A stretch of 38,932 nt of DNA, from the IMG/VR virus record IMGVR_UViG_3300042878_000998, positions 1 through 38,932 of that record; one strand, 5' to 3'. Origin of the DNA: a virus. This document shows positions 1 to 38,932 of this stretch, piece by piece. The translations under genes were made by a program, and so were the position numbers. Numbering within the stretch: the stretch's first letter is position 1; every line of letters starts with the position of its first letter. The notes under the pieces are model-generated. The model had not been told where the DNA came from. It made no database searches and saw nothing but the letters and a program-made list of their open reading frames with translations.

Positions 1-245
1 ATCGCGGTCGGGGGGGTGGGGTTATTGTAATTGGTCAGAACGCCCCCATAAAAAAATATTACAAATGGTCCCTCCTGAAAGGAGAACGTAGAACATAGTT
101 GAAGAAGACATTGAAACATAGTTGAACAAATGTCTTGACAGAAATTTTGGGGGCTCAGTACAATCCATACGCAAGCGAAGGATAATGCTTAAAGACTTTT
201 TTTCATTGTTTTTGTTTGGCATTTCATGTCTAAATTGTTTCAAGT
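1..245. other. Left-end gene-free leader
   Basis: No credible gene lies here. The only open frame of any length (minus strand, 22-243) has a composition unlike the phage proteins and covers the promoter. The stretch holds a small hairpin (CTCCT-GAA-AGGAG, 72-84), a 12-base direct repeat AACATAGTTGAA at 92-103 and 115-126 (start-to-start 23 bases), and a sigma70-type promoter facing the terminase genes. I infer that it is the late-transcription control region, possibly contiguous with the right end of the window if the genome is circular or circularly permuted. Confidence 0.6.
135..164 (+). promoter_or_regulatory. Sigma70-type promoter for the late operon
   Basis: A perfect -35 box TTGACA (135-140) is separated by 18 bases from a near-consensus -10 box TACAAT (159-164). 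Transcription would begin near 171, about 75 bases before the small terminase start. The -35 box is the right half of a TGTC-TT-GACA inverted repeat (131-140), and two AACATAGTTGAA direct repeats lie just upstream, so a regulator could act here. This is the best promoter match I found in the window. It implies that host RNA polymerase transcribes the structural genes, consistent with the absence of a phage polymerase gene. Confidence 0.75.
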
Positions 246-740
246 ATGAGCATAGAAAACATCAGCCCCGTCCTGTTGTCCTCACTAGTGGACAGTGATT
301 GTCGCACCCTAGAGGCGCGGGAGCCGACGAAGGCTATGCTGTGCTTGGAGCAACTAGCGGAGGGGAATACATGGGAGGAGATAGCTGAGGCTACGGGCTT
401 CTCGTTCAATCAGATTAGTAAGGTAAAGGCGCGGCATGAGGTGGCCATTGAGGTGAGACGGAAGCAGTTGGCGGCTGATGGATTTGAGATGGCAGAGGGA
501 CTGAGGTTGTTGGCTAAACAGAAGCTAGAGATGCTGGCGAACAACCCAGACGCTTTGGCTAAGGTGAACATTCGAGACTTGGTTCTTTCCTATGGAATAG
601 CCGTGGATAAGGGTATGCAGGCTCTAGGTGAGAACAAGGTGGTGGTGGAGCATAAGGCCGGGAAGCCTAGCTTGGAGGATGCTATGAAGGCTATAGCGGA
701 TGCTAGGGCCGCGCTTCAGAAGGAGGCCATCAGCATATGA
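246..740 (+). CDS. terS: Terminase small subunit (putative)
   Basis: This 164-residue protein should bind packaging sites on concatemeric DNA and load the large subunit. The call rests on position, first in the late operon and overlapping the large terminase gene by 4 bases (ATGA), and on architecture. A helix-turn-helix-like segment lies around residues 33-60 (GNTWEEIAEATGFSFNQISKVKARHE), followed by a long charged helical stretch typical of an oligomerisation core. The start follows the TTGACA/TACAAT promoter by about 80 bases. No Shine-Dalgarno sequence is visible; the leader is T- and A-rich. Small terminases diverge fast, so the family cannot be fixed by eye, but the genomic context is strong. 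Confidence 0.8.
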   Translation: MSIENISPVLLSSLVDSDCRTLEAREPTKAMLCLEQLAEGNTWEEIAEATGFSFNQISKVKARHEVAIEVRRKQLAADGFEMAEGLRLLAKQKLEMLANNPDALAKVNIRDLVLSYGIAVDKGMQALGENKVVVEHKAGKPSLEDAMKAIADARAALQKEAISI

Positions 741-2338
741 TTTGGAGGAAACACGCCATTCTCACGCCACCAACCAATGAGGAAATGGCGCGAATGCAGC
801 CGGAGGCTCTAGCCTCGCTCTACGACATCTATCATCAGGCAATAGAGAACAGCATCCGAGACCCTTACAGGTATGGCTTTAAGCTCCCGCATTGGAAGAA
901 AGCTGAGGAGTTGTTAGAATCTTTCAATGAACTACTTGTGAGCGGCGGCAATAGATCGTCTAAGACGACTTGGGCAGCGACGGCGGTGGTGAAAGCAGCA
1001 ATGGACAATCCCGGTAGTGTGATTATGTGCTTCGCCCAGAACGCAGACGTTTCCATTAGACAACAACAAAGCGCAATATATGATGCACTCCCAGAAGAAC
1101 TTAGGAAGAAAACGCTTAGTGCTGAAGAGAACATTAGCTACACGCGGAAGAACGGCTTCTCGAAAAGCAGCCTCATCCTCCCCGGCACGAAGAGCCACAT
1201 CATCTTCAAGACCTATGCTCAGTTTCTTAACAACGATACTATTCTGGAAGGAGCGGAGCTGGGCAGCCGTGAACCGGTATGGCTCAATCTTGGGGCTTGG
1301 TGTGATGAATACCTTATTGGCCCTGAGCTACTACGCACTCTGCGCTTTAGATTGGCTACCCGTAACGCCAAAATCATTGTTACGTTCACTCCGATTGACG
1401 GTTACACGGAAGTGGTTAGAGACTACCTTGAGAAAGCAAGAACAGTAGAAACCAAACTAGCGGAGCTTCTCAATGATAGACCTGTGCCGTTTGTTCAACA
1501 CGCTGCGAATGGAAACAGCGCGATCATTTATTTCCATTCAAAGGACAATCCGTTTGGTGGGTATGATCGTATTGCTCAGGACTTACAAGGCAGGGGCGAA
1601 GAAGAAATCCTGACGCGAGCCTACGGCGTTCCCACCAAGAGTGCGTCAACTAGGTTCCCTATGTTCTCACGGGAGGTTAATGTCATACCACATGACAAGA
1701 TACCGCGTGAAAATGTTACACGTTACATGGTCTTAGACCCGGCTGGGCGCAAGAACTGGTTTATGTGTTGGATAGCTGTGGATGAGAGCGAGACCTACTA
1801 CGTCTATCGTGAGTGGCCGGATGTGAACGTAGGGGACTGGGCCAAGTGGCATGGAGGACGATGGATAGGAGGAGATGGTAGCAAGGGGCTTGGCTACGGC
1901 ATTAAGAACTACGTTGACTTAATTATCCGGTCTGAGTCGGACGACAAGGAGGAGATACTGGACAGGCTCATTGACCCGCGCCTTGGCGCAGCCAAGTATC
2001 AATCGCAGAACGGGGCGAGTTCGATCATCGAAGACTTGGCTGACAACGGGCTGACGTTTAATCCTGCTCCCGGTTTGGACATTGAGGACGGCATCCAAGC
2101 CATCCAAAGCAAGATGGCTTACAATCGTAAGGCTAAGATGGATAGCCTCAACCGCCCACGCTTCTATGTTTCAGAGAATTGCCAGAACATCATCACTGCC
2201 CTTCAGGAATACACGGGAGACGGCGGAACAGATGAAGCATGGAAAGACCCAATAGATGTCATCCGCTATGCGTGCATTGACGGCATACGCTGGATGGATA
2301 AGACAATACAACAACCAAAACGAAGGAGCGGATACTAA
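737..2338 (+). CDS. terL: Terminase large subunit
   Basis: This is the DNA-packaging motor ATPase and nuclease, 533 residues long, a normal length. The Walker A-like P-loop GGNRSSKT lies at residues 70-77. A Walker B-like segment ending in CDEY (189-192) is followed by a coupling motif TFTP (216-219). The C-terminal RNase H-fold nuclease begins at YMVLDPAGRKN (330-340), with D334 as the likely first metal ligand. Its start overlaps the small terminase stop by 4 bases, and its stop TAATG overlaps the next start by one base, so translation is coupled on both sides. The ATPase plus nuclease domain order matches complete large terminases, and I see no truncation. Confidence 0.95.
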   Translation: MIWRKHAILTPPTNEEMARMQPEALASLYDIYHQAIENSIRDPYRYGFKLPHWKKAEELLESFNELLVSGGNRSSKTTWAATAVVKAAMDNPGSVIMCFAQNADVSIRQQQSAIYDALPEELRKKTLSAEENISYTRKNGFSKSSLILPGTKSHIIFKTYAQFLNNDTILEGAELGSREPVWLNLGAWCDEYLIGPELLRTLRFRLATRNAKIIVTFTPIDGYTEVVRDYLEKARTVETKLAELLNDRPVPFVQHAANGNSAIIYFHSKDNPFGGYDRIAQDLQGRGEEEILTRAYGVPTKSASTRFPMFSREVNVIPHDKIPRENVTRYMVLDPAGRKNWFMCWIAVDESETYYVYREWPDVNVGDWAKWHGGRWIGGDGSKGLGYGIKNYVDLIIRSESDDKEEILDRLIDPRLGAAKYQSQNGASSIIEDLADNGLTFNPAPGLDIEDGIQAIQSKMAYNRKAKMDSLNRPRFYVSENCQNIITALQEYTGDGGTDEAWKDPIDVIRYACIDGIRWMDKTIQQPKRRSGY

Positions 2339-5231: not shown

Positions 5232-5306
5232 TGGAGCCCCCGATAGGGATTGAACCTACGACAGCCAGTTTACAAAACTGGTGCTCTACCACTGAGCTAC
5301 AAGGGC
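5232..5306 (-). tRNA. tRNA-Thr (anticodon UGU)
   Basis: Read on the minus strand this 75-base segment folds into a complete cloverleaf. It has a 7-bp acceptor (GCCCTTG/CGGGGGC, with G-U pairs), D stem GCTC/GAGC with loop AGTGGTA, and anticodon stem CCAGT/ACTGG with loop TTTGTAA (anticodon TGT). The variable loop is five bases, and the T stem GTAGG/CCTAT carries the loop TTCAATC. The 3' CCA is encoded. All conserved positions (T33, GG in the D loop, TTC in the T loop) are present, so it looks functional. It decodes ACA, a threonine codon useful for the Thr-rich fibres. It lies antisense inside the plus-strand late cluster, so it needs its own minus-strand transcript. Confidence 0.95.
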
Positions 5307-13045: not shown

Positions 13046-15226
13046 ATGGCTCGTTATAACACTTTTGGCGAAAAAGACAGTCAGTTCAATGATGAGGTGG
13101 ACATTGGATTCTCACGAATCAATGCCCGATTGCGCCCCGATCAATTAAAGTCTGGCGAGCTGGCTGTGTCCATCAATGGACGCATGGACATTGACGGTGC
13201 TTGGCAACCCCGAAAAGGGTCTAATGCTTTTGGTCCCCAGCTTGGTAATAGCGGCGAAGCGTTGATTGTTCCGTTCTACGTTTGGACCAACCGCACTATT
13301 TCTAGCGCAACTCGCAGCACAACGACGGTTACAATTACCACCTCCGTTGCTCATGGATTTACCACAAGCACACAAGTGGGTATCTCTGGGCTTACTGGAA
13401 CCGTTGACCCCAATGGCAATCGCACAATCACTGTAACGGGTTCAACCACATTTACGTTTACTATTACAGGTGCTACGGGTAGCGAAACCTATTCGATTGG
13501 TGGAAGCAACTTTGCTGGGGCTCCTCTTCTGAGCAGCAACATTAACAATGCCTACGGCTCTTGCTTGTTCTCCGACCCATCGGATGACAATGACGAATAC
13601 TTTATTTTGGCCCTAAATTCTAAAGCCATTGCGGTTAATTGCGCGACAGCAGCTACAACTAACATAGCCTATCCATCCGGCATCACCATAACGGATGACG
13701 TGGAGATGATTCAGGCGTTTAACAAGGTGTTCATCTTCAGGGATGGACTTACGGCCCTATCTTGGAACGGCGTTGTTACGGGTAGCCCAGCCTTCGTTAA
13801 GGTGGCAAACGGCACCTATGCCAACACAACGTATTATGATAGCAACAACAATACGGTGATAACGGATGGCGTAGTAACTGTAAGTGAAACTGCCCACGGT
13901 CTTTCTGTTGGTAGACAGATTTTTGTGGTAGATGCTGGCACAACTCCACTAGTAGAAAACGGGGCTGGTTACACCATTGCGTCTGTTCCTAACGCCAATA
14001 CATTCACTTTCTTTGCCCAAGTTGTAGATCACGCAAGTCACAAAGTGACTTATTCTGTGGCTCAATCACAAGGACTTGGATTTGTTCACATGCCCGCGCC
14101 CCCGTGGGGAGTCTATCACCAACGTCGTATCATTGCTCCCTACTACTACACATCGACGGGAACATCTGGCAGTGAAGTAATTACTAGCCGCAACGTAAGG
14201 GATGAGTTGATATTCTCTGACATTTTTGATTCAGACACCTATGACCAAATCCAGAATCAGTTCAAGGTTACGGCTGGCATTGCTGACTACTTGCAATATG
14301 TCCACCCGTTCACCGACGACAATGCTGTGGTTCTCAATCGCAATAGCATTCATCTTCTTAGCGGACTTTCGGGTAGCCTGACCGACATTACACTCAAAGA
14401 AATTACACGCGAAGCTGGGCTTGTGGCCCGTCGTTCCGTTGTAACCATTGCCAATCAAATCTTCTTCCTTTCAGACAACGGTGTTTACGCAACAGCCTTC
14501 GGCGACCTCTATAATCTTCGCGGAGCAGGACTACCCTTGTCTGACCCAATTGACCCTATCATTCGCCAAATCAACAAGGAGTATGCCGACAAGTCGGTAG
14601 CCATCTATCACAACAATCGCTACTACATTGCCATCCCGTTAAACGCATCCATCTACAACAACGCCATATTGGTTTACAACTTGCTCAACCAAGGCTGGGA
14701 AAGCATTGATTTAATTGAACAGGAAGGCTGGGACGTGGCCAACTTCATTACCTCTAGTGCTGGTGGCGTTAATAGACTCTTTGCCATCAATCGATTTGGC
14801 GGCATCAATGAGGTGGAGTCCCGCGTTGATGACGTGGATAACATCTATACGTTCCCCGGTCTCCCATCCAAATCATTTCACGTTGAGTCCGAAGCGTTAA
14901 CCCGCGAGTTTACATTCCAAAGTCCAGAACGCAAGAAGTTCAACAGCTTTGAAATCCATACGGAATCCAGCGAAACCAACAACTCCGACGCTCTCATTGA
15001 GGGTGTGTCTGAGAATTTGGATAGTGAATTTGAGCTTGGCACCGTATCCGGCATCCTAGGTGAAGTCTTAGCCGTTGGTGAAGACGCATCCCTGCGTGGT
15101 AGAATCGGCAACATTCGGGCTTACGGAATGCAACTTAGATATACTCCGACTGCTGGACGACCCAAGTTGCGCTTAGTAAAGCTCACAGTATCACCCACCT
15201 TCAGAGCGTTAACACAAGCCTCATAA
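13046..15226 (+). CDS. Tail nozzle / tail tubular B-like protein
   Basis: This 726-residue protein is the likely distal tail tube. The opening (NDEVDIGFSRINARLRPDQLKSGELAVSINGRMDIDGAWQPRKGSNAF) is characteristic of phage tail nozzle proteins, which begin with a segment about contributing strands and 'ings of the genome'. The body is beta-propeller-like with repeats such as IIAPYYYTSTG and KSVAIYHNNRYYIAIPLNASIYNNAILVYNLLNQGWESI. Two beta modules are inserted (around VGISGLTGTVDPNGNRTITV and AHGLSVGRQIFVVDAG...NANTFTF). The first closely resembles one in the adaptor-like protein. It lies 2 bases before a fibre gene. Confidence 0.85.
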   Translation: MARYNTFGEKDSQFNDEVDIGFSRINARLRPDQLKSGELAVSINGRMDIDGAWQPRKGSNAFGPQLGNSGEALIVPFYVWTNRTISSATRSTTTVTITTSVAHGFTTSTQVGISGLTGTVDPNGNRTITVTGSTTFTFTITGATGSETYSIGGSNFAGAPLLSSNINNAYGSCLFSDPSDDNDEYFILALNSKAIAVNCATAATTNIAYPSGITITDDVEMIQAFNKVFIFRDGLTALSWNGVVTGSPAFVKVANGTYANTTYYDSNNNTVITDGVVTVSETAHGLSVGRQIFVVDAGTTPLVENGAGYTIASVPNANTFTFFAQVVDHASHKVTYSVAQSQGLGFVHMPAPPWGVYHQRRIIAPYYYTSTGTSGSEVITSRNVRDELIFSDIFDSDTYDQIQNQFKVTAGIADYLQYVHPFTDDNAVVLNRNSIHLLSGLSGSLTDITLKEITREAGLVARRSVVTIANQIFFLSDNGVYATAFGDLYNLRGAGLPLSDPIDPIIRQINKEYADKSVAIYHNNRYYIAIPLNASIYNNAILVYNLLNQGWESIDLIEQEGWDVANFITSSAGGVNRLFAINRFGGINEVESRVDDVDNIYTFPGLPSKSFHVESEALTREFTFQSPERKKFNSFEIHTESSETNNSDALIEGVSENLDSEFELGTVSGILGEVLAVGEDASLRGRIGNIRAYGMQLRYTPTAGRPKLRLVKLTVSPTFRALTQAS

Positions 15227-22943: not shown

Positions 22944-23570
22944 TTATTCTTTAACACCATTACAAAAAGTATTGAGGTCGGCGTTGCGGCCAAGTTCAGC
23001 GTGCCATGTTTCGTCTGGCATTACGGCGTATTCCGTAAGGACGGATGGGTTGGGATGGACGAAGGAGTCATCATTCCAAAGGATGCGGTTGTTAGGTTGG
23101 GCCGCAATTTGGCCTGAGCCGTCTTCCAATAGGAGCAAATGATAGCATTTGTGCTCTGGGGGATATTGGGAGTAGCCGTTGTCCGTGTGGTCTAGGGTGA
23201 ACCAATAGGAGGCCGGGACCATGAGCCCGTCCCTTGTTCGATAGGAGCAGCCCATCTCCCGTAGGTATTCGTAGGCTGTTACCGAGAAATCCCATCCATG
23301 GCAGTCCCAGCTCTGGAGTTGTGGGAGTTGATGCCGGGGAGCGTTCTCCTCTGGTTCTGTATGCCGCAGTTTGTGTAGGGGTATTCTAGCCCACTGGCTA
23401 CCCACTTCTGTCATTATGGAGAAGTGGAGAGCGCGGGATGGGAGGGAAGTAACACCAAATATGACGCAGCGGTCAAAGCAAGCGGATTCCTCAATAGAAC
23501 CCCGTAGGATGTTCTGGTCAACCAGTCCATAGAGGTGTTGAGGAACTGAGGCGTTTAGTGTGTGGTGCAT
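22944..23570 (-). CDS. 208-residue unknown protein
   Basis: The product (MHHTLNASVPQHLYGLVDQNILRGSIEESACFDRCVIFGVTSLPSRALHFSIMTEVGSQWARIPLHKL...) is a soluble, aromatic-rich protein with many His, Trp and Cys residues (SWDCHGWDFSVTAYEYLREMGCSYRT). I do not recognise the family. It starts at the TAATG junction with the small winged-helix-like gene, so translation is coupled. The conserved-looking central Trp/His cluster could form an enzyme pocket, but no known catalytic motif is identifiable. Confidence 0.7.
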   Translation of the reverse strand: MHHTLNASVPQHLYGLVDQNILRGSIEESACFDRCVIFGVTSLPSRALHFSIMTEVGSQWARIPLHKLRHTEPEENAPRHQLPQLQSWDCHGWDFSVTAYEYLREMGCSYRTRDGLMVPASYWFTLDHTDNGYSQYPPEHKCYHLLLLEDGSGQIAAQPNNRILWNDDSFVHPNPSVLTEYAVMPDETWHAELGRNADLNTFCNGVKE

Positions 23571-32479: not shown

Positions 32480-32773
32480 TCAAGCGGAACCATTATCCCA
32501 TAACCCTAATGTTTCAAGAAAAGCGCGAGCCCGTTGGGCGGCGGTGGCGTGAACCAAAGACCCCTCCGCTACGATTACGGAAAGGCGGTCAAGGTAAGTA
32601 GCCCACTCGCAGTCAAGTATAAGCACCTTCTCCGCCTCGTGCATGGCGTTCAAGTCGTTGAGGTAGTCGGGAGGCGATTGTGGAAACACTTGACCGCGCA
32701 TATCCATTTGAAATGGATTTGGCTTCCACCCGCACGCTTCTGCAATGGCGATACGTTGTTTTTCTTTGTTCAT
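32480..32773 (-). CDS. 97-residue phage-type protein (EACGW / QRARAFLETLGLW)
   Basis: The product (MNKEKQRIAIAEACGWKPNPF ... SPPDYLNDLNAMHEAEKVLILDCEWATYLDRLSVIV... HATAAQRARAFLETLGLWDNGSA) shows the full layout of a small phage family I recall: EACGW, DYLNDLNAMHEAEKVL, then HATAAQRAxAFLxTLGLW. The role is unknown. It lies 30 bases upstream of the HNH gene and shares its C-terminal segment with it. Confidence 0.78.
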   Translation of the reverse strand: MNKEKQRIAIAEACGWKPNPFQMDMRGQVFPQSPPDYLNDLNAMHEAEKVLILDCEWATYLDRLSVIVAEGSLVHATAAQRARAFLETLGLWDNGSA

Positions 32774-33060
32774 TTCTTTATTTTGTAGCTAATATTTTCT
32801 AACGTGGGTGAGTGATTGTCCTTATTTGCCTTAACCAACCGATCAACCGAGGGCAATGAAAGGTTGTGTATCTTACATAAATCCTTGCGGCTCAAACCCC
32901 CTCGCCAGTCTTGCACAACGGCTAGGGCTTTCTTGGCGTCAATCCTAGGCCGTGAGGCAAACTCCCGGCTCTTACCCTGTGCAATGGGGTTGTTAGCAAA
33001 TCGTAAATAGTATTTTCCCATCAAAAATCTGACGGAAGCCATCGTTTCTGATATGTTCAT
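32770..33060 (-). CDS. 96-residue HTH-like protein
   Basis: The start is ATG 33060 (MNISETMASVRFLMGK), which overlaps the upstream stop by 4 bases. A helix-turn-helix pattern (ALAVVQDWRGGLSRKDLCKIHNLSLPSVDRLVKAN) lies in the middle. The C-terminus is Lys-rich. It may be a transcription regulator or replication-initiation factor; the site is unknown. Confidence 0.7.
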   Translation of the reverse strand: MNISETMASVRFLMGKYYLRFANNPIAQGKSREFASRPRIDAKKALAVVQDWRGGLSRKDLCKIHNLSLPSVDRLVKANKDNHSPTLENISYKIKK

Positions 33061-33296
33061 AGGGGTTTGACTCCGTTCTTTCGGCAATGGACCTGAATTG
33101 CGGCCCTACTTACGCCCAATTCCTTCCCGATTTGCTTAATAGGCATACCGCTTTTTCGGCGTTCGAGAATAGCGAAAATCGTTTTGGCTGAGAGCTTGTT
33201 CGTTTTCCGGTCTTCTTCAATTGGTCCCCCACCTTCGCGCATAAGGCGCGGAGCATGGCGGAAGATTAGGTCTAGGCAAATACTTGCTGTGCTCAT
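33057..33296 (-). CDS. 79-residue HTH-like regulator (putative)
   Basis: The C-terminal half carries a clear helix-turn-helix pattern (AILERRKSGMPIKQIGKELGVSRAAIQVHCRKNGVKPL). The N-terminal part contains a Gly-rich linker (MREGGGPIEEDRK). Like its downstream neighbour, it is small enough to be a promoter-bound regulator or origin-binding factor. Leader GAGAAAACAAATG; the start is a 4-base overlap. Confidence 0.72.
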   Translation of the reverse strand: MSTASICLDLIFRHAPRLMREGGGPIEEDRKTNKLSAKTIFAILERRKSGMPIKQIGKELGVSRAAIQVHCRKNGVKPL

Positions 33297-33577
33297 TTGT
33301 TTTCTCCAAAGTTTGGTTGGCCGCTAATAACAGCTCTCCTGAAATCTTCTGCCTGAAAAAGAATCGCTCCGTTCCAAGTAAGGATAAGAGCAGAATGCTT
33401 CTTAATGTCGTCGTGAATTTGGTTCACCATGACGACATATTCCTCCCTCTTTTCCGTGAACTCAGCTTCAGAGCTAACGGTTTTAGTGGTAGAAATCCAT
33501 GTGTCATCTTTGAAATAAATCGTGAACTTTATTTCCGAGCTTTTGGGCTCTGTTTTTTTCTTTGAGAATAGGTTCAT
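33293..33577 (-). CDS. 94-residue unknown protein
   Basis: The start is ATG 33577, overlapping the upstream stop by 4 bases; the frame's upstream extension is not needed. The product (MNLFSKKKTEPKSSEIKFTIYFKDDTWISTTKTVSSEAEFTEKREEYVVMVNQIHDDIKKHSALILTWNGAILFQAEDFRRAVIS...) is an alpha/beta protein with a basic N-terminus. I recognise no motif. Confidence 0.65.
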   Translation of the reverse strand: MNLFSKKKTEPKSSEIKFTIYFKDDTWISTTKTVSSEAEFTEKREEYVVMVNQIHDDIKKHSALILTWNGAILFQAEDFRRAVISGQPNFGENK

Positions 33578-33807
33578 TTTGTTTTGTTTTGATAGAGGTA
33601 GTGTCTTGCTAGGTGGAGCGGTGCTCCGTGGTCCCTGCAAAGCTCTCTTAGGGTTTTCTGTGCTTTGAATAGGTCCGCAACTTTCATTGCGGCCCAGCCT
33701 CTTTTGGTAGGCAATCTAATTCTGGTCTTAACTACTGTTTCTTTAGGCATTAAGACGGTTTCTTCAGGGTTAATGCTTGTTTCTTTAGATGTTATGTCTT
33801 GTTCCAT
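33574..33807 (-). CDS. 77-residue protein with three 7-residue repeats
   Basis: This is the first gene of the replication operon. The N-terminus contains three heptapeptide units (SKETSIN, PEETVLM, PKETVVK), matched in DNA by three degenerate 21-base repeats at about 33729-33793. The C-terminal half (KRGWAAMKVADLFKAQKTLRELCRDHGAPLHLARHYLYQNKTK) is basic with a possible HTH. The start context AACACCTATG matches that of the gene at 36744. The function is unknown; DNA binding is possible. Confidence 0.65.
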   Translation of the reverse strand: MEQDITSKETSINPEETVLMPKETVVKTRIRLPTKRGWAAMKVADLFKAQKTLRELCRDHGAPLHLARHYLYQNKTK

Positions 33808-35341: not shown

Positions 35342-35563
35342 TTATTGAGTGTTATCTGACTTAAGAGGCAAAGCTTTACCAGTTACCGGAAGCCGGAAAA
35401 TAAACGCCCCCTCGCCCCGCATGGCATGATCGAAGAGTGCGTCAAGGCTCTCGCCTATGGGGATTCCGTAGGCTTTACGCCACGCTTGCAGGCTTGCCAG
35501 TGTGCGAGGCTGCACGAGGCCGACAAGCCTCACCTTTGGCAGTCTATAGGGCTTAGGCGTCAT
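35342..35563 (-). CDS. 73-residue unknown protein
   Basis: The start is ATG 35563, overlapping the 28-residue peptide by 4 bases. The product (MTPKPYRLPKVRLVGLVQPRTLASLQAWRKAYGIPIGESLDALFDHAMRGEGAFIFRLPVTGKALPLKSDNTQ) is basic in its first half. The helical middle (TLASLQAWRKAYGIPIGESLDALFDHAM) resembles a short ribbon-helix-helix-type or anti-toxin-type segment. The role is unknown. Confidence 0.65.
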   Translation of the reverse strand: MTPKPYRLPKVRLVGLVQPRTLASLQAWRKAYGIPIGESLDALFDHAMRGEGAFIFRLPVTGKALPLKSDNTQ

Positions 35564-35646
35564 CTGAGAAGCCTCACCGCGAGGCATAGGACTAGCGCGC
35601 CTATGGAAAGCAGGCAGAGCGCAGCGTTAAGAATGAGACGTGTCAT
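35560..35646 (-). CDS. 28-residue membrane peptide with a strong SD
   Basis: The product (MTRLILNAALCLLSIGALVLCLAVRLLR) is almost wholly one hydrophobic helix with basic ends. AGGAGG lies 8 bases before ATG 35646, one of the best ribosome sites in the window, and both ends have 4-base overlaps. This combination suggests high translation of a membrane-active or regulatory peptide. It could be a minimal holin or a host-membrane toxin. This is inference. Confidence 0.6.
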   Translation of the reverse strand: MTRLILNAALCLLSIGALVLCLAVRLLR

Positions 35647-36806: not shown

Positions 36807-37682
36807 TCAATCAATCGGCGTGGTTTCCATCTTTCCGAGGATGAAATCGGCGGCCCTTTGTCCCTGCGCGGCGGCGTGAATTACTAATTTGCTATCCTCT
36901 TTCAATTGCTTTAGCCACCCCTGAATATAAGAGGCGGAAGCGGGCAGTGTGTTGTCAATCCCCGAAACAGCGCAAAGGAACGCCGCCCCCATTTCCGCAA
37001 CCAACTCCTCCTTAGCGTAGGTTTCGCCGCCAAACGCCGCAACCTCTGCAACCCCTTTACGATTGAGGCGGCTCTCATGCCCCGTTGCGTGCGTCAACTC
37101 ATGGAATAGGGTTGAATAGTAGTTTCCGGACGTGTCAAACGTCTCGGCTTGTGGCATTTGAACGCTATCCGTTGACGGGCGATAATATGCTCTGTCGCCG
37201 CCGTGTGCCAATTTGGGGGCCCTTGGCATATTGGAAACAATCTTTTCCGCCTCTGCTACGGGGTTAAACTCCGCCCCTTCAATCTTTTCCGCAGTCCATT
37301 CTATGCCCTCGCACTGTTCAACGTTGAAAACGGTGTAATACTTCAGGAAAGGGATTTTCTTCGGCTTGCCGGTAGCGTCCTTTTCTGTTTTGCTATCAAC
37401 CCAATTCCAAAAAACAACCGGCGTCCCCTTTTCCCCTTTCCGCACGCTTCCCTTTAGTTCGGCGGCTTGTTTGTAAGTAAGCCAAAAGGGGCACGAATAG
37501 GGGGAAAAGGATAACAAAAACCAATTGATTCCCCGGTAGGATTTGCGGCTTCCAAAGTTTGCAGGGTTACCGCCGTTTTGCGCCTTCCAAGGTTTGCGCC
37601 ATGGAACAGTCCCCGCTTCCAATTGGGAAACAATGCGTTCCGTGATAATGCTGTAAACGTCTTTCTTTTCTTCCGTTTTCAT
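36807..37682 (-). CDS. ArdC-like antirestriction protein
   Basis: This 291-residue protein starts at ATG 37682 (MKTEEKKDVYSIITERIVSQLEAGTVPWRKPW). The N-terminal domain (about 8-95) matches the ssDNA-binding half of ArdC proteins (GTVPWRKPW, SYRGINWFLLSF, FWLTYKQAAELKGSVRKGEKGTPVVFW). The C-terminal zincin-like domain has HELTH (194-198) with a downstream Glu/His-rich helix (KEELVAEMGAAFLC). ArdC proteins protect incoming DNA from host restriction, so early expression is logical. A hairpin at 37737-37769 sits in its leader. Confidence 0.9.
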   Translation of the reverse strand: MKTEEKKDVYSIITERIVSQLEAGTVPWRKPWKAQNGGNPANFGSRKSYRGINWFLLSFSPYSCPFWLTYKQAAELKGSVRKGEKGTPVVFWNWVDSKTEKDATGKPKKIPFLKYYTVFNVEQCEGIEWTAEKIEGAEFNPVAEAEKIVSNMPRAPKLAHGGDRAYYRPSTDSVQMPQAETFDTSGNYYSTLFHELTHATGHESRLNRKGVAEVAAFGGETYAKEELVAEMGAAFLCAVSGIDNTLPASASYIQGWLKQLKEDSKLVIHAAAQGQRAADFILGKMETTPID

Positions 37683-37736
37683 TTGTGTGTGTTTCCTGTC
37701 AATTAAGAGGACAATTGCGCCCTCCTTCAATGCCTT

Positions 37737-37769
37737 AACCCCGCCCCTCACGAATGAGGAGGCAGGGTT
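37737..37769 (-). promoter_or_regulatory. Stable UUCG-type hairpin upstream of the ArdC-like gene
   Basis: On the minus strand the arms AACCCTGCCTCCTCA and TGAGGGGCGGGGTT pair almost fully (one bulge, two G-U) around a TTCG loop. In RNA this is a very stable UUCG tetraloop. It lies 55 bases before the ArdC-like start and 21 bases after the preceding stop. There is no T-tract, so it is more likely an RNA processing, stability or regulatory element than a terminator. Confidence 0.6.
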
Positions 37770-38052: not shown

Positions 38053-38442
38053 TTATGAGCAGCAGAGGCAGCGACGGGTTTCGGCGAGGGCAGCGGATTC
38101 TTCGCGAGCTAGGGCGGCGGCACTCGACCGAGCCTTGTCAGCAGCGAGACCCTTGACTATCTCGCCGAGGTTGAATCGAGCGTGCCAAAGCCCGCGCACC
38201 GATTCAGGCTTCCAATTAGTCATCGTGGAGATGCCGACCGAGGCGCGTCTAAGGCGGCGCACCGAGACGATGACTTGCACCCATTCATCACGATACCCTG
38301 ACCCAGCGCGGCAAGCATTGATCGTGGTCGTCTCAAATGAACCACATGAGAAGTTTTCGGTCTCGGTGGTAACGCTAAGGCCAGCGGAGCGAGCGTAGGC
38401 GATGAGGCAGTCGGCTTCGGCGAGGGATGCGGTGTTGTTCAT
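38053..38442 (-). CDS. 129-residue protein, first gene of the right-hand minus operon
   Basis: The start is taken at ATG 38442 (MNNTASLAEADCLIAYARSAGLSVTTETENFSCGSFETTTINACRAGSGYRDEWVQVIVSVRRLRRASVG...), which has an A-rich leader, instead of 38523. The end is Cys-rich (AALAETRRCLCCS). The G+C content is higher than in neighbouring genes. As the first gene it may be an early takeover or anti-defence protein; I recognise no family. Confidence 0.65.
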   Translation of the reverse strand: MNNTASLAEADCLIAYARSAGLSVTTETENFSCGSFETTTINACRAGSGYRDEWVQVIVSVRRLRRASVGISTMTNWKPESVRGLWHARFNLGEIVKGLAADKARSSAAALAREESAALAETRRCLCCS

Positions 38443-38544
38443 GATTTTTTTCGATCTTTTTTTTGCCTTCGCGGGATGCGTTGGCGATGTGATGAGAGTG
38501 CGTGAGCGTTTGATTGATTGCAAGCTTTTCTACACAAAAGAAAG

Positions 38545-38592
38545 AAGATAGTTCGCAAGTCGCTACGCTTGCAACGATTTGCGCGCTATCTT
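38545..38592. promoter_or_regulatory. Nested inverted repeat (cruciform-like)
   Basis: Outer arms AAGATAG (38545-38551) and CTATCTT (38586-38592) pair exactly. Inside, GCAAG (38555-38559) and CTTGC (38568-38572) pair, with CG/CG next to the loop after one bulged T. Read leftward a pyrimidine-rich stretch (CTTCTTTCTTTTG) follows. It could be an origin element, a binding site or a structured early leader. Confidence 0.5.
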
Positions 38593-38805
38593 TTCCACGT
38601 GATTTGCGGCCTCTTATGCCTCACACCGTAAGAACAGAGCAAACAGAGAGCAGAGAGCCTGCACAAAGGAAGAGAGCCAACGCTAGGTTGCCTGCCTGCC
38701 TTGCTGCATCTCACCCCGCCGTTCCAATCGCCCGTAATGCATCACCTCCCCTTAACGATTCCCGCCTCTCGCGACTGAGACTCTGTCGCATTAAGCTCTT
38801 GAGGC

Positions 38806-38916
38806 TGGGACATAGGCTGTCCCACCTATGGTTTGAGATGGATACCTGAGACAAGCCGTGTCCCACCCATCCCTTGCGCGGCCTGCCGCCGGATACCTGA
38901 GACATCCCTTGTCCCA
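38806..38916. repeat. Three palindromic operator-like sites
   Basis: Each site is 19 bases: TGGGACA-TAGGC-TGTCCCA (38806-38824), TGAGACA-AGCCG-TGTCCCA (38847-38865) and TGAGACA-TCCCT-TGTCCCA (38898-38916). Starts are 41 and 51 bases apart, near whole helical turns. The second and third share GGATACC just before the left arm. Repeated 7-bp half-sites with fixed 5-base spacing are typical of a dimeric regulator, possibly one of the HTH proteins encoded at 32770-33296. Confidence 0.75.
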
Positions 38917-38932
38917 TACGTTGCGACTCAGT

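Follow-up and report, generated by a model that had tools for sequence, protein, structure and literature searches.

What is a set of three near-identical palindromes doing in a phage region without genes, and which protein, if any, reads it? The window, by which we mean the whole stretch of 38,932 bases analysed, is the IMG/VR record IMGVR_UViG_3300042878_000998, a linear contig without end repeats. Close to its right end lie three 19-bp dyads of the pattern TGRGACA-N5-TGTCCCA, sharing one spacer length and with start-to-start distances of 41 and 51, exactly as the original prediction had claimed; they are the sole matches to this pattern in the record at zero or one mismatch. No exact match was found in 500 first-order Markov shuffles, and none is expected by chance.

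The array and its place in the closed genome

The features of the control region, read across the junction of the window's ends, are the following:

38776..38790, no strand: degenerate copy of a different dyad (TGAGATTCAGTCTCA in relatives), adjoining the array on its left
38806..38824, no strand: dyad 1, TGGGACATAGGCTGTCCCA, a perfect palindrome with 7-bp arms
38840..38916, no strand: two direct-repeat units GGATACCTGAGACA..TGTCCCA, 26 nt long, 88% alike and 51 apart, which hold dyads 2 and 3
38847..38865, no strand: dyad 2, TGAGACAAGCCGTGTCCCA, cleanly lost from the two-dyad relatives L018 and L028
38898..38916, no strand: dyad 3, TGAGACATCCCTTGTCCCA, the closest of the three to the G-tract
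between the window ends: left half of the G-tract, AGGGGGGGAGGGGG, absent here and present in L019, L020 and L028
1..25, + strand: right half of the G-tract (G7, T, then G4), conserved
90..128, + strand: pair of ACATAGTTGAA direct repeats at a 23-bp interval, adjoining the late promoter and shared by cassette types A, B and C
135..164, + strand: promoter-like sequence of the late genes, TTGACA-N18-TACAAT, kept in relatives

The palindrome is perfect in site 1 alone; in each of the other two the halves differ once, A against G. The dyad region holds no genes save short, probably spurious frames, and no sigma-70-like promoter overlapping the dyads was found in 38380-38932 with the sigma-70 consensus, the one promoter type covered.

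The junction of the window's ends is crossed by three contigs of relatives found via the large terminase (L019, L020 and L028), in which it reads ...TTGCGAC(T/C)CAGT CTCAATAGGAGGGGGGGAGGGGG ... GGGGGGGGTGGGGTTATTGTAATTGG..., and the window's ends match both sides; the junction of L030 is a few bases different. Because these contigs span both ends, the window is, on this comparison, a nearly whole genome that stops some 25 bp short, at the G-tract (G7AG5), and its dyads lie between the divergent operons. This bears out the gene-free place between early and late operons that had been predicted for a circularised genome: the array stands upstream of the leftward early operon, with the conserved G-tract next to it and the late promoter some 300 bp away.

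The G-tract is itself G-quadruplex-prone, lies upstream of the late promoter, and is where the assembly broke. In L020 (4297-4330) it consists of G7AG5 and a second G8TG4 run, and in the relatives where it was found it occupies a single place per genome. Its composition resembles that of the mitochondrial CSBII.

Retention, loss and replacement of the dyads among relatives

Relatives were retrieved with the large terminase of the window, which together with its neighbour opens the late operon:

246..740, + strand: first late gene, small-terminase-like by position and a weak HTH_23 match, kept in dyad-less relatives
737..2338, + strand: large terminase (phrog_2), the query for relatives

Two to four dyads were found just left of the G-tract and 0.8-1.2 kb upstream of the large terminase gene in 12 fetched terminase loci and in L101. 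Across all the dyad-bearing phages, those of the second family described below included, there are one to four copies at spacings of 23-51 bp, without regular helical spacing over at least three direct repeats, and in the two-dyad relatives the number of units changes by the clean loss of one unit. The dyads form regular direct arrays with 26 bp between them in L039 and L101, and stand 23 bp apart in L092. The helical phasing proposed in the original prediction is true of the three sites in the window but is not conserved, and the spacings of 23-51 bp rule it out as a design rule.

In relatives with a terminase 98-99% identical to that of the window, the G-tract and the late promoter are kept and unrelated repeats stand in the dyads' place. 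These are GGCTACTAGGC repeats in L005, L009, L011, L012 and L013 and CGCCCGTATT repeats in L006 and L007 (also in L037 and L045, at 90%), and some dyad-less relatives have no evident array. L006, L007, L009, L011 and L013 have the whole control region, with repeats of other kinds and zero dyads. In sisters the dyad array is thus exchanged as a block for unrelated repeat arrays left of the G-tract, and the phage group can dispense with the site, since sister genomes lack it. Those relatives that carry the CGCCCGTATT cassette (L006:5475-7612, L037) have an amidoligase (PF12224) and a glutamine amidotransferase (PF13522) beside a variant gene of the ribbon-helix-helix (RHH) type, and the control region of L037 holds a parS-like palindrome, TGTTCCACGTGGAACA. 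Five relatives (L010, L012, L013, L019, L028) carry an extra frame, endonuclease-like by eye, that separates the late promoter from the first late gene.

Further afield, the G-tract extends to Phage C75C1 (OQ984151), the late genes of which are collinear; in the annotated phage collection this was the only phage whose terminase protein matched over most of its length, at 44% identity, and the DNA of the window from position 14000 onward had no near match there. A literature search on the motif, and on operators of this kind in Verrucomicrobia phages, returned nothing useful.

What might read the dyads

Among the 27 distinct cores of this phage group, 17 have different outer purines in their two halves and 13 different inner ones, and the left outer edge is T in 29 of 29, though T was not demanded at collection; GACA and TGTC had been required in the search, which in part guarantees that they are invariant and keeps this from being independent evidence. 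In a hairpin each purine difference between the halves would give an A-C mismatch, and no compensation that keeps the arms complementary was found. Since the halves vary independently at the outer and inner purines, base pairing is not what is kept, and the dyads look like sites read by a protein with tolerant purines rather than base-paired hairpins. The array is real and recurrent, and probably a regulatory binding site of the protein type in a phage control region. Our best explanation, which we put forward tentatively, is that a dimeric DNA-binding protein, either host-encoded or unrecognised, uses the dyads as an array of operators and so controls the early operon.

The main rival, possible but weaker, is that the dyads are replication-origin iterons, at each of which an initiator dimer would bind and so open the A-rich stretch that lies right of the G-tract. 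The regular 26-bp arrays of L039 and L101 and the 23-bp array of L092 are iteron-like, the conserved G-tract and ATAAAAAAATATT come after the array, and the window has a DnaB-type helicase gene. But the replication genes are constant across cassette types, the helicase and small HTH genes being 80-99% identical when the array is replaced; moreover, arrays of one copy occur, spacing is irregular, and the GC skew has no clear switch. We consider this reading doubtful. Of the two options in the original prediction, a transcription switch or an iteron set, we prefer the switch, as an operator and with the reserve stated above, the single dyads, irregular spacing and constant replication genes making the iteron set the weaker.

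Could the palindromes be mobile, REP-like hairpin repeats, or RNA hairpins or terminators, with no DNA-binding protein dedicated to them? Site 1 scored as terminator-like, and a similar palindrome, AGGGACA-N5-TGTCCCT, is scattered through the genome of Verrucomicrobia bacterium LW23, where GGGACAT-N3-ATGTCCC is present in 65 exact copies; 386 further genomes from the phylum have 2 between them. In the LW23 loci that were read, these repeats lie between co-directional genes or inside frames, often as 18-bp tandems, and the family (L156, L165, L282-L296) is a genome-wide, lineage-specific REP-like repeat. The LW23 repeat, however, has A and not T at its outer edge, the phage arms are not compensated, the array region has no Rfam match, and in most records there is one array per phage genome, in a single place rather than dispersed over many loci. 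This reading is therefore improbable in our judgement. For its part, the LW23 family was rejected as proof of a host factor for the phage site, being a lookalike with a different outer base that is nearly absent elsewhere in the phylum.

The original prediction had proposed a dimeric protein and pointed to two small HTH proteins of the phage. Several early genes could be considered as the source of a binder:

32770..33060, - strand: 96-aa HTH protein, weak HTH match, conserved with and without dyads
33057..33296, - strand: 79-aa protein, predicted HTH, conserved with and without dyads
35342..35587, - strand: RHH-like protein of 81 aa, ribbon-helix-helix by eye, in three allele classes
38053..38523, - strand: first leftward early gene, no recognised DNA-binding domain

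A dimeric reader is likely, given symmetric sites whose halves vary independently, but a link between them and the HTH pair is not borne out. Homologues of the pair are present in most dyad-bearing genomes with enough sequence, yet in five dyad-less sisters (L006, L007, L009, L011, L013) both genes, and with them another small gene (33574-33807), retain 80-99% identity; for the HTH pair this is the very outcome that the prediction had named as telling against it, and on this ground the pair was rejected as dyad binders. In addition, the 79-aa protein had no match in 11 records of the second phage family described below, mostly dyad-bearing, in a search run without a positive control. The HTH genes co-occur with the ACATAGTTGAA repeats at the late promoter rather than with the dyads: the ACATAGTTGAA pair and TTGACA-N18-TACAAT are found in every close lineage, whatever its cassette, with a single copy in L020 and L025. 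That the pair binds the dyads is very unlikely, and the ACATAGTTGAA repeats are the better candidate site for these conserved proteins, which might act there, perhaps as activators. That a genome encodes an HTH protein says little about which protein reads a palindrome in it.

Equally hard to credit is a packaging site (cos or pac) with the dyads bound by the small terminase, as the array's place 0.8-1.2 kb upstream of the large terminase, by the G-tract where the assembly broke, might suggest, because the small-terminase-like protein is 98-99% identical in dyad-less genomes, for which it was rejected as a binder, and the conserved element is the G-tract and not the dyads.

Two further candidates were considered. 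Homologues of the first leftward early gene (38053-38523) were found in 5 of 10 dyad genomes and 0 of 9 others (p 0.03, from related and hence non-independent genomes); found only with dyads, yet missing from half of the genomes that have them, it was set aside. The RHH-like product of 35342-35587 has no PHROG, PDB or Pfam match and a poor AlphaFold model (mean pLDDT 51.6), and it was set aside as its allele classes do not follow cassette type (A and B share one, and A has two); it may still be the binder. Among the genomes compared, none of the early genes occurs in every genome with dyads and in no genome without them, which points to a binder outside the phage genome.

Elsewhere in the window we note an ArdC-type antirestriction protein (36807-37751, ArdcN and a zincin-like domain), a minus-strand tRNA-Thr (TGT) lying between two late genes (5232-5306; L020 also has an Rfam tRNA on the minus strand), and, where the early and late genes converge, a protein matching a phage ferredoxin family (22944-23570, phrog_3704).

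For the operator array we would propose one to four 19-bp sites built from the half-site TRRGACA, with one dimer of a sequence-specific binding protein on each, where the occupancy of neighbouring sites would most likely set early transcription and bending or looping of the control region might be involved. The binder would be neither the conserved HTH pair nor the small terminase, and most likely a host-encoded regulator or, less likely, the product of an unrecognised phage gene. What the sequences show is the sites, where they lie, a variation that is protein-like rather than hairpin-like, the exchange of the whole block and its reappearance in another phage family; that a protein binds there, that it acts on early transcription and where it comes from is what we infer.

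A second phage family and comparison with known systems

A pattern scan recovered a dyad pair in a second phage family (group 2), the terminase of which matches those of Akkermansia phages at 31-36% and is unrelated to that of the window. One or two dyads lie 2.0-3.2 kb upstream of the terminase in 53 of 63 group-2 loci, the other 10 holding at most 2.7 kb upstream of that gene; many loci have a single copy, spacings of 24, 33, 46 and 48 bp occur, and one nearly complete record (G450) has no dyad. Gene order was read in two group-2 contigs, G023 and G033, and in both the dyads stand ahead of a leftward early operon that runs away from the late genes. A 93.6-kb record (L330) likewise has, ahead of an operon, two dyads at 23-bp spacing, along with a TGAGA-N5-TCTCA dyad, which also flanks the array in the window's relatives; an accessory protein of L330 looks by eye like one from L030. 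Several accessory genes are common to both phage families, which suggests overlapping hosts. Distant relatives of the terminase were found in 8 of 387 genomes of Verrucomicrobiota, the only phylum searched and without a control phylum, and that phylum as the host is a guess.

A bolder proposal, and to our mind an unlikely one, is that at least two families with unrelated terminases, probably of Verrucomicrobiota hosts, share a dimer site through the same host protein, an early regulator or origin factor, and that sister phages switch this dependence by swapping the cassette beside an invariant G-quadruplex-prone tract. If the reading of the array given above is right, a simple cis-element would serve to recognise unrelated uncultured phages of one host group, and the sisters would be a natural experiment in which a control-region cassette changes while the genes stay, making the early-switch protein directly testable.

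Among known systems, the C-box sites of restriction-modification controller proteins are short GAC..GTC dyads read by small dimers, and for us they are a lead only: here no controller gene or restriction-modification operon lies beside the array. The REP-like palindromes of LW23 share the GGGACA-N5-TGTCCC core but are genome-wide, with A/T at the outer edges and often in 18-bp tandem, whereas the phage dyads occupy one locus and have uncompensated halves. With the lambda origin and plasmid iteron origins the array has in common tandem dyads near an A-rich stretch and, in some relatives, a 23-26 bp spacing; here, in contrast, a single copy is possible and the replication genes are unchanged with the array. 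From the lambdoid OL/OR operators it differs in that no overlapping promoter was detected, no repressor gene is adjacent, the spacing is 41 and 51 bp, and the array is exchanged without any gene following, no early gene co-varying with it; what it shares with them is several dyads of 17-19 bp, built on one consensus, in a control region between divergent transcription units.
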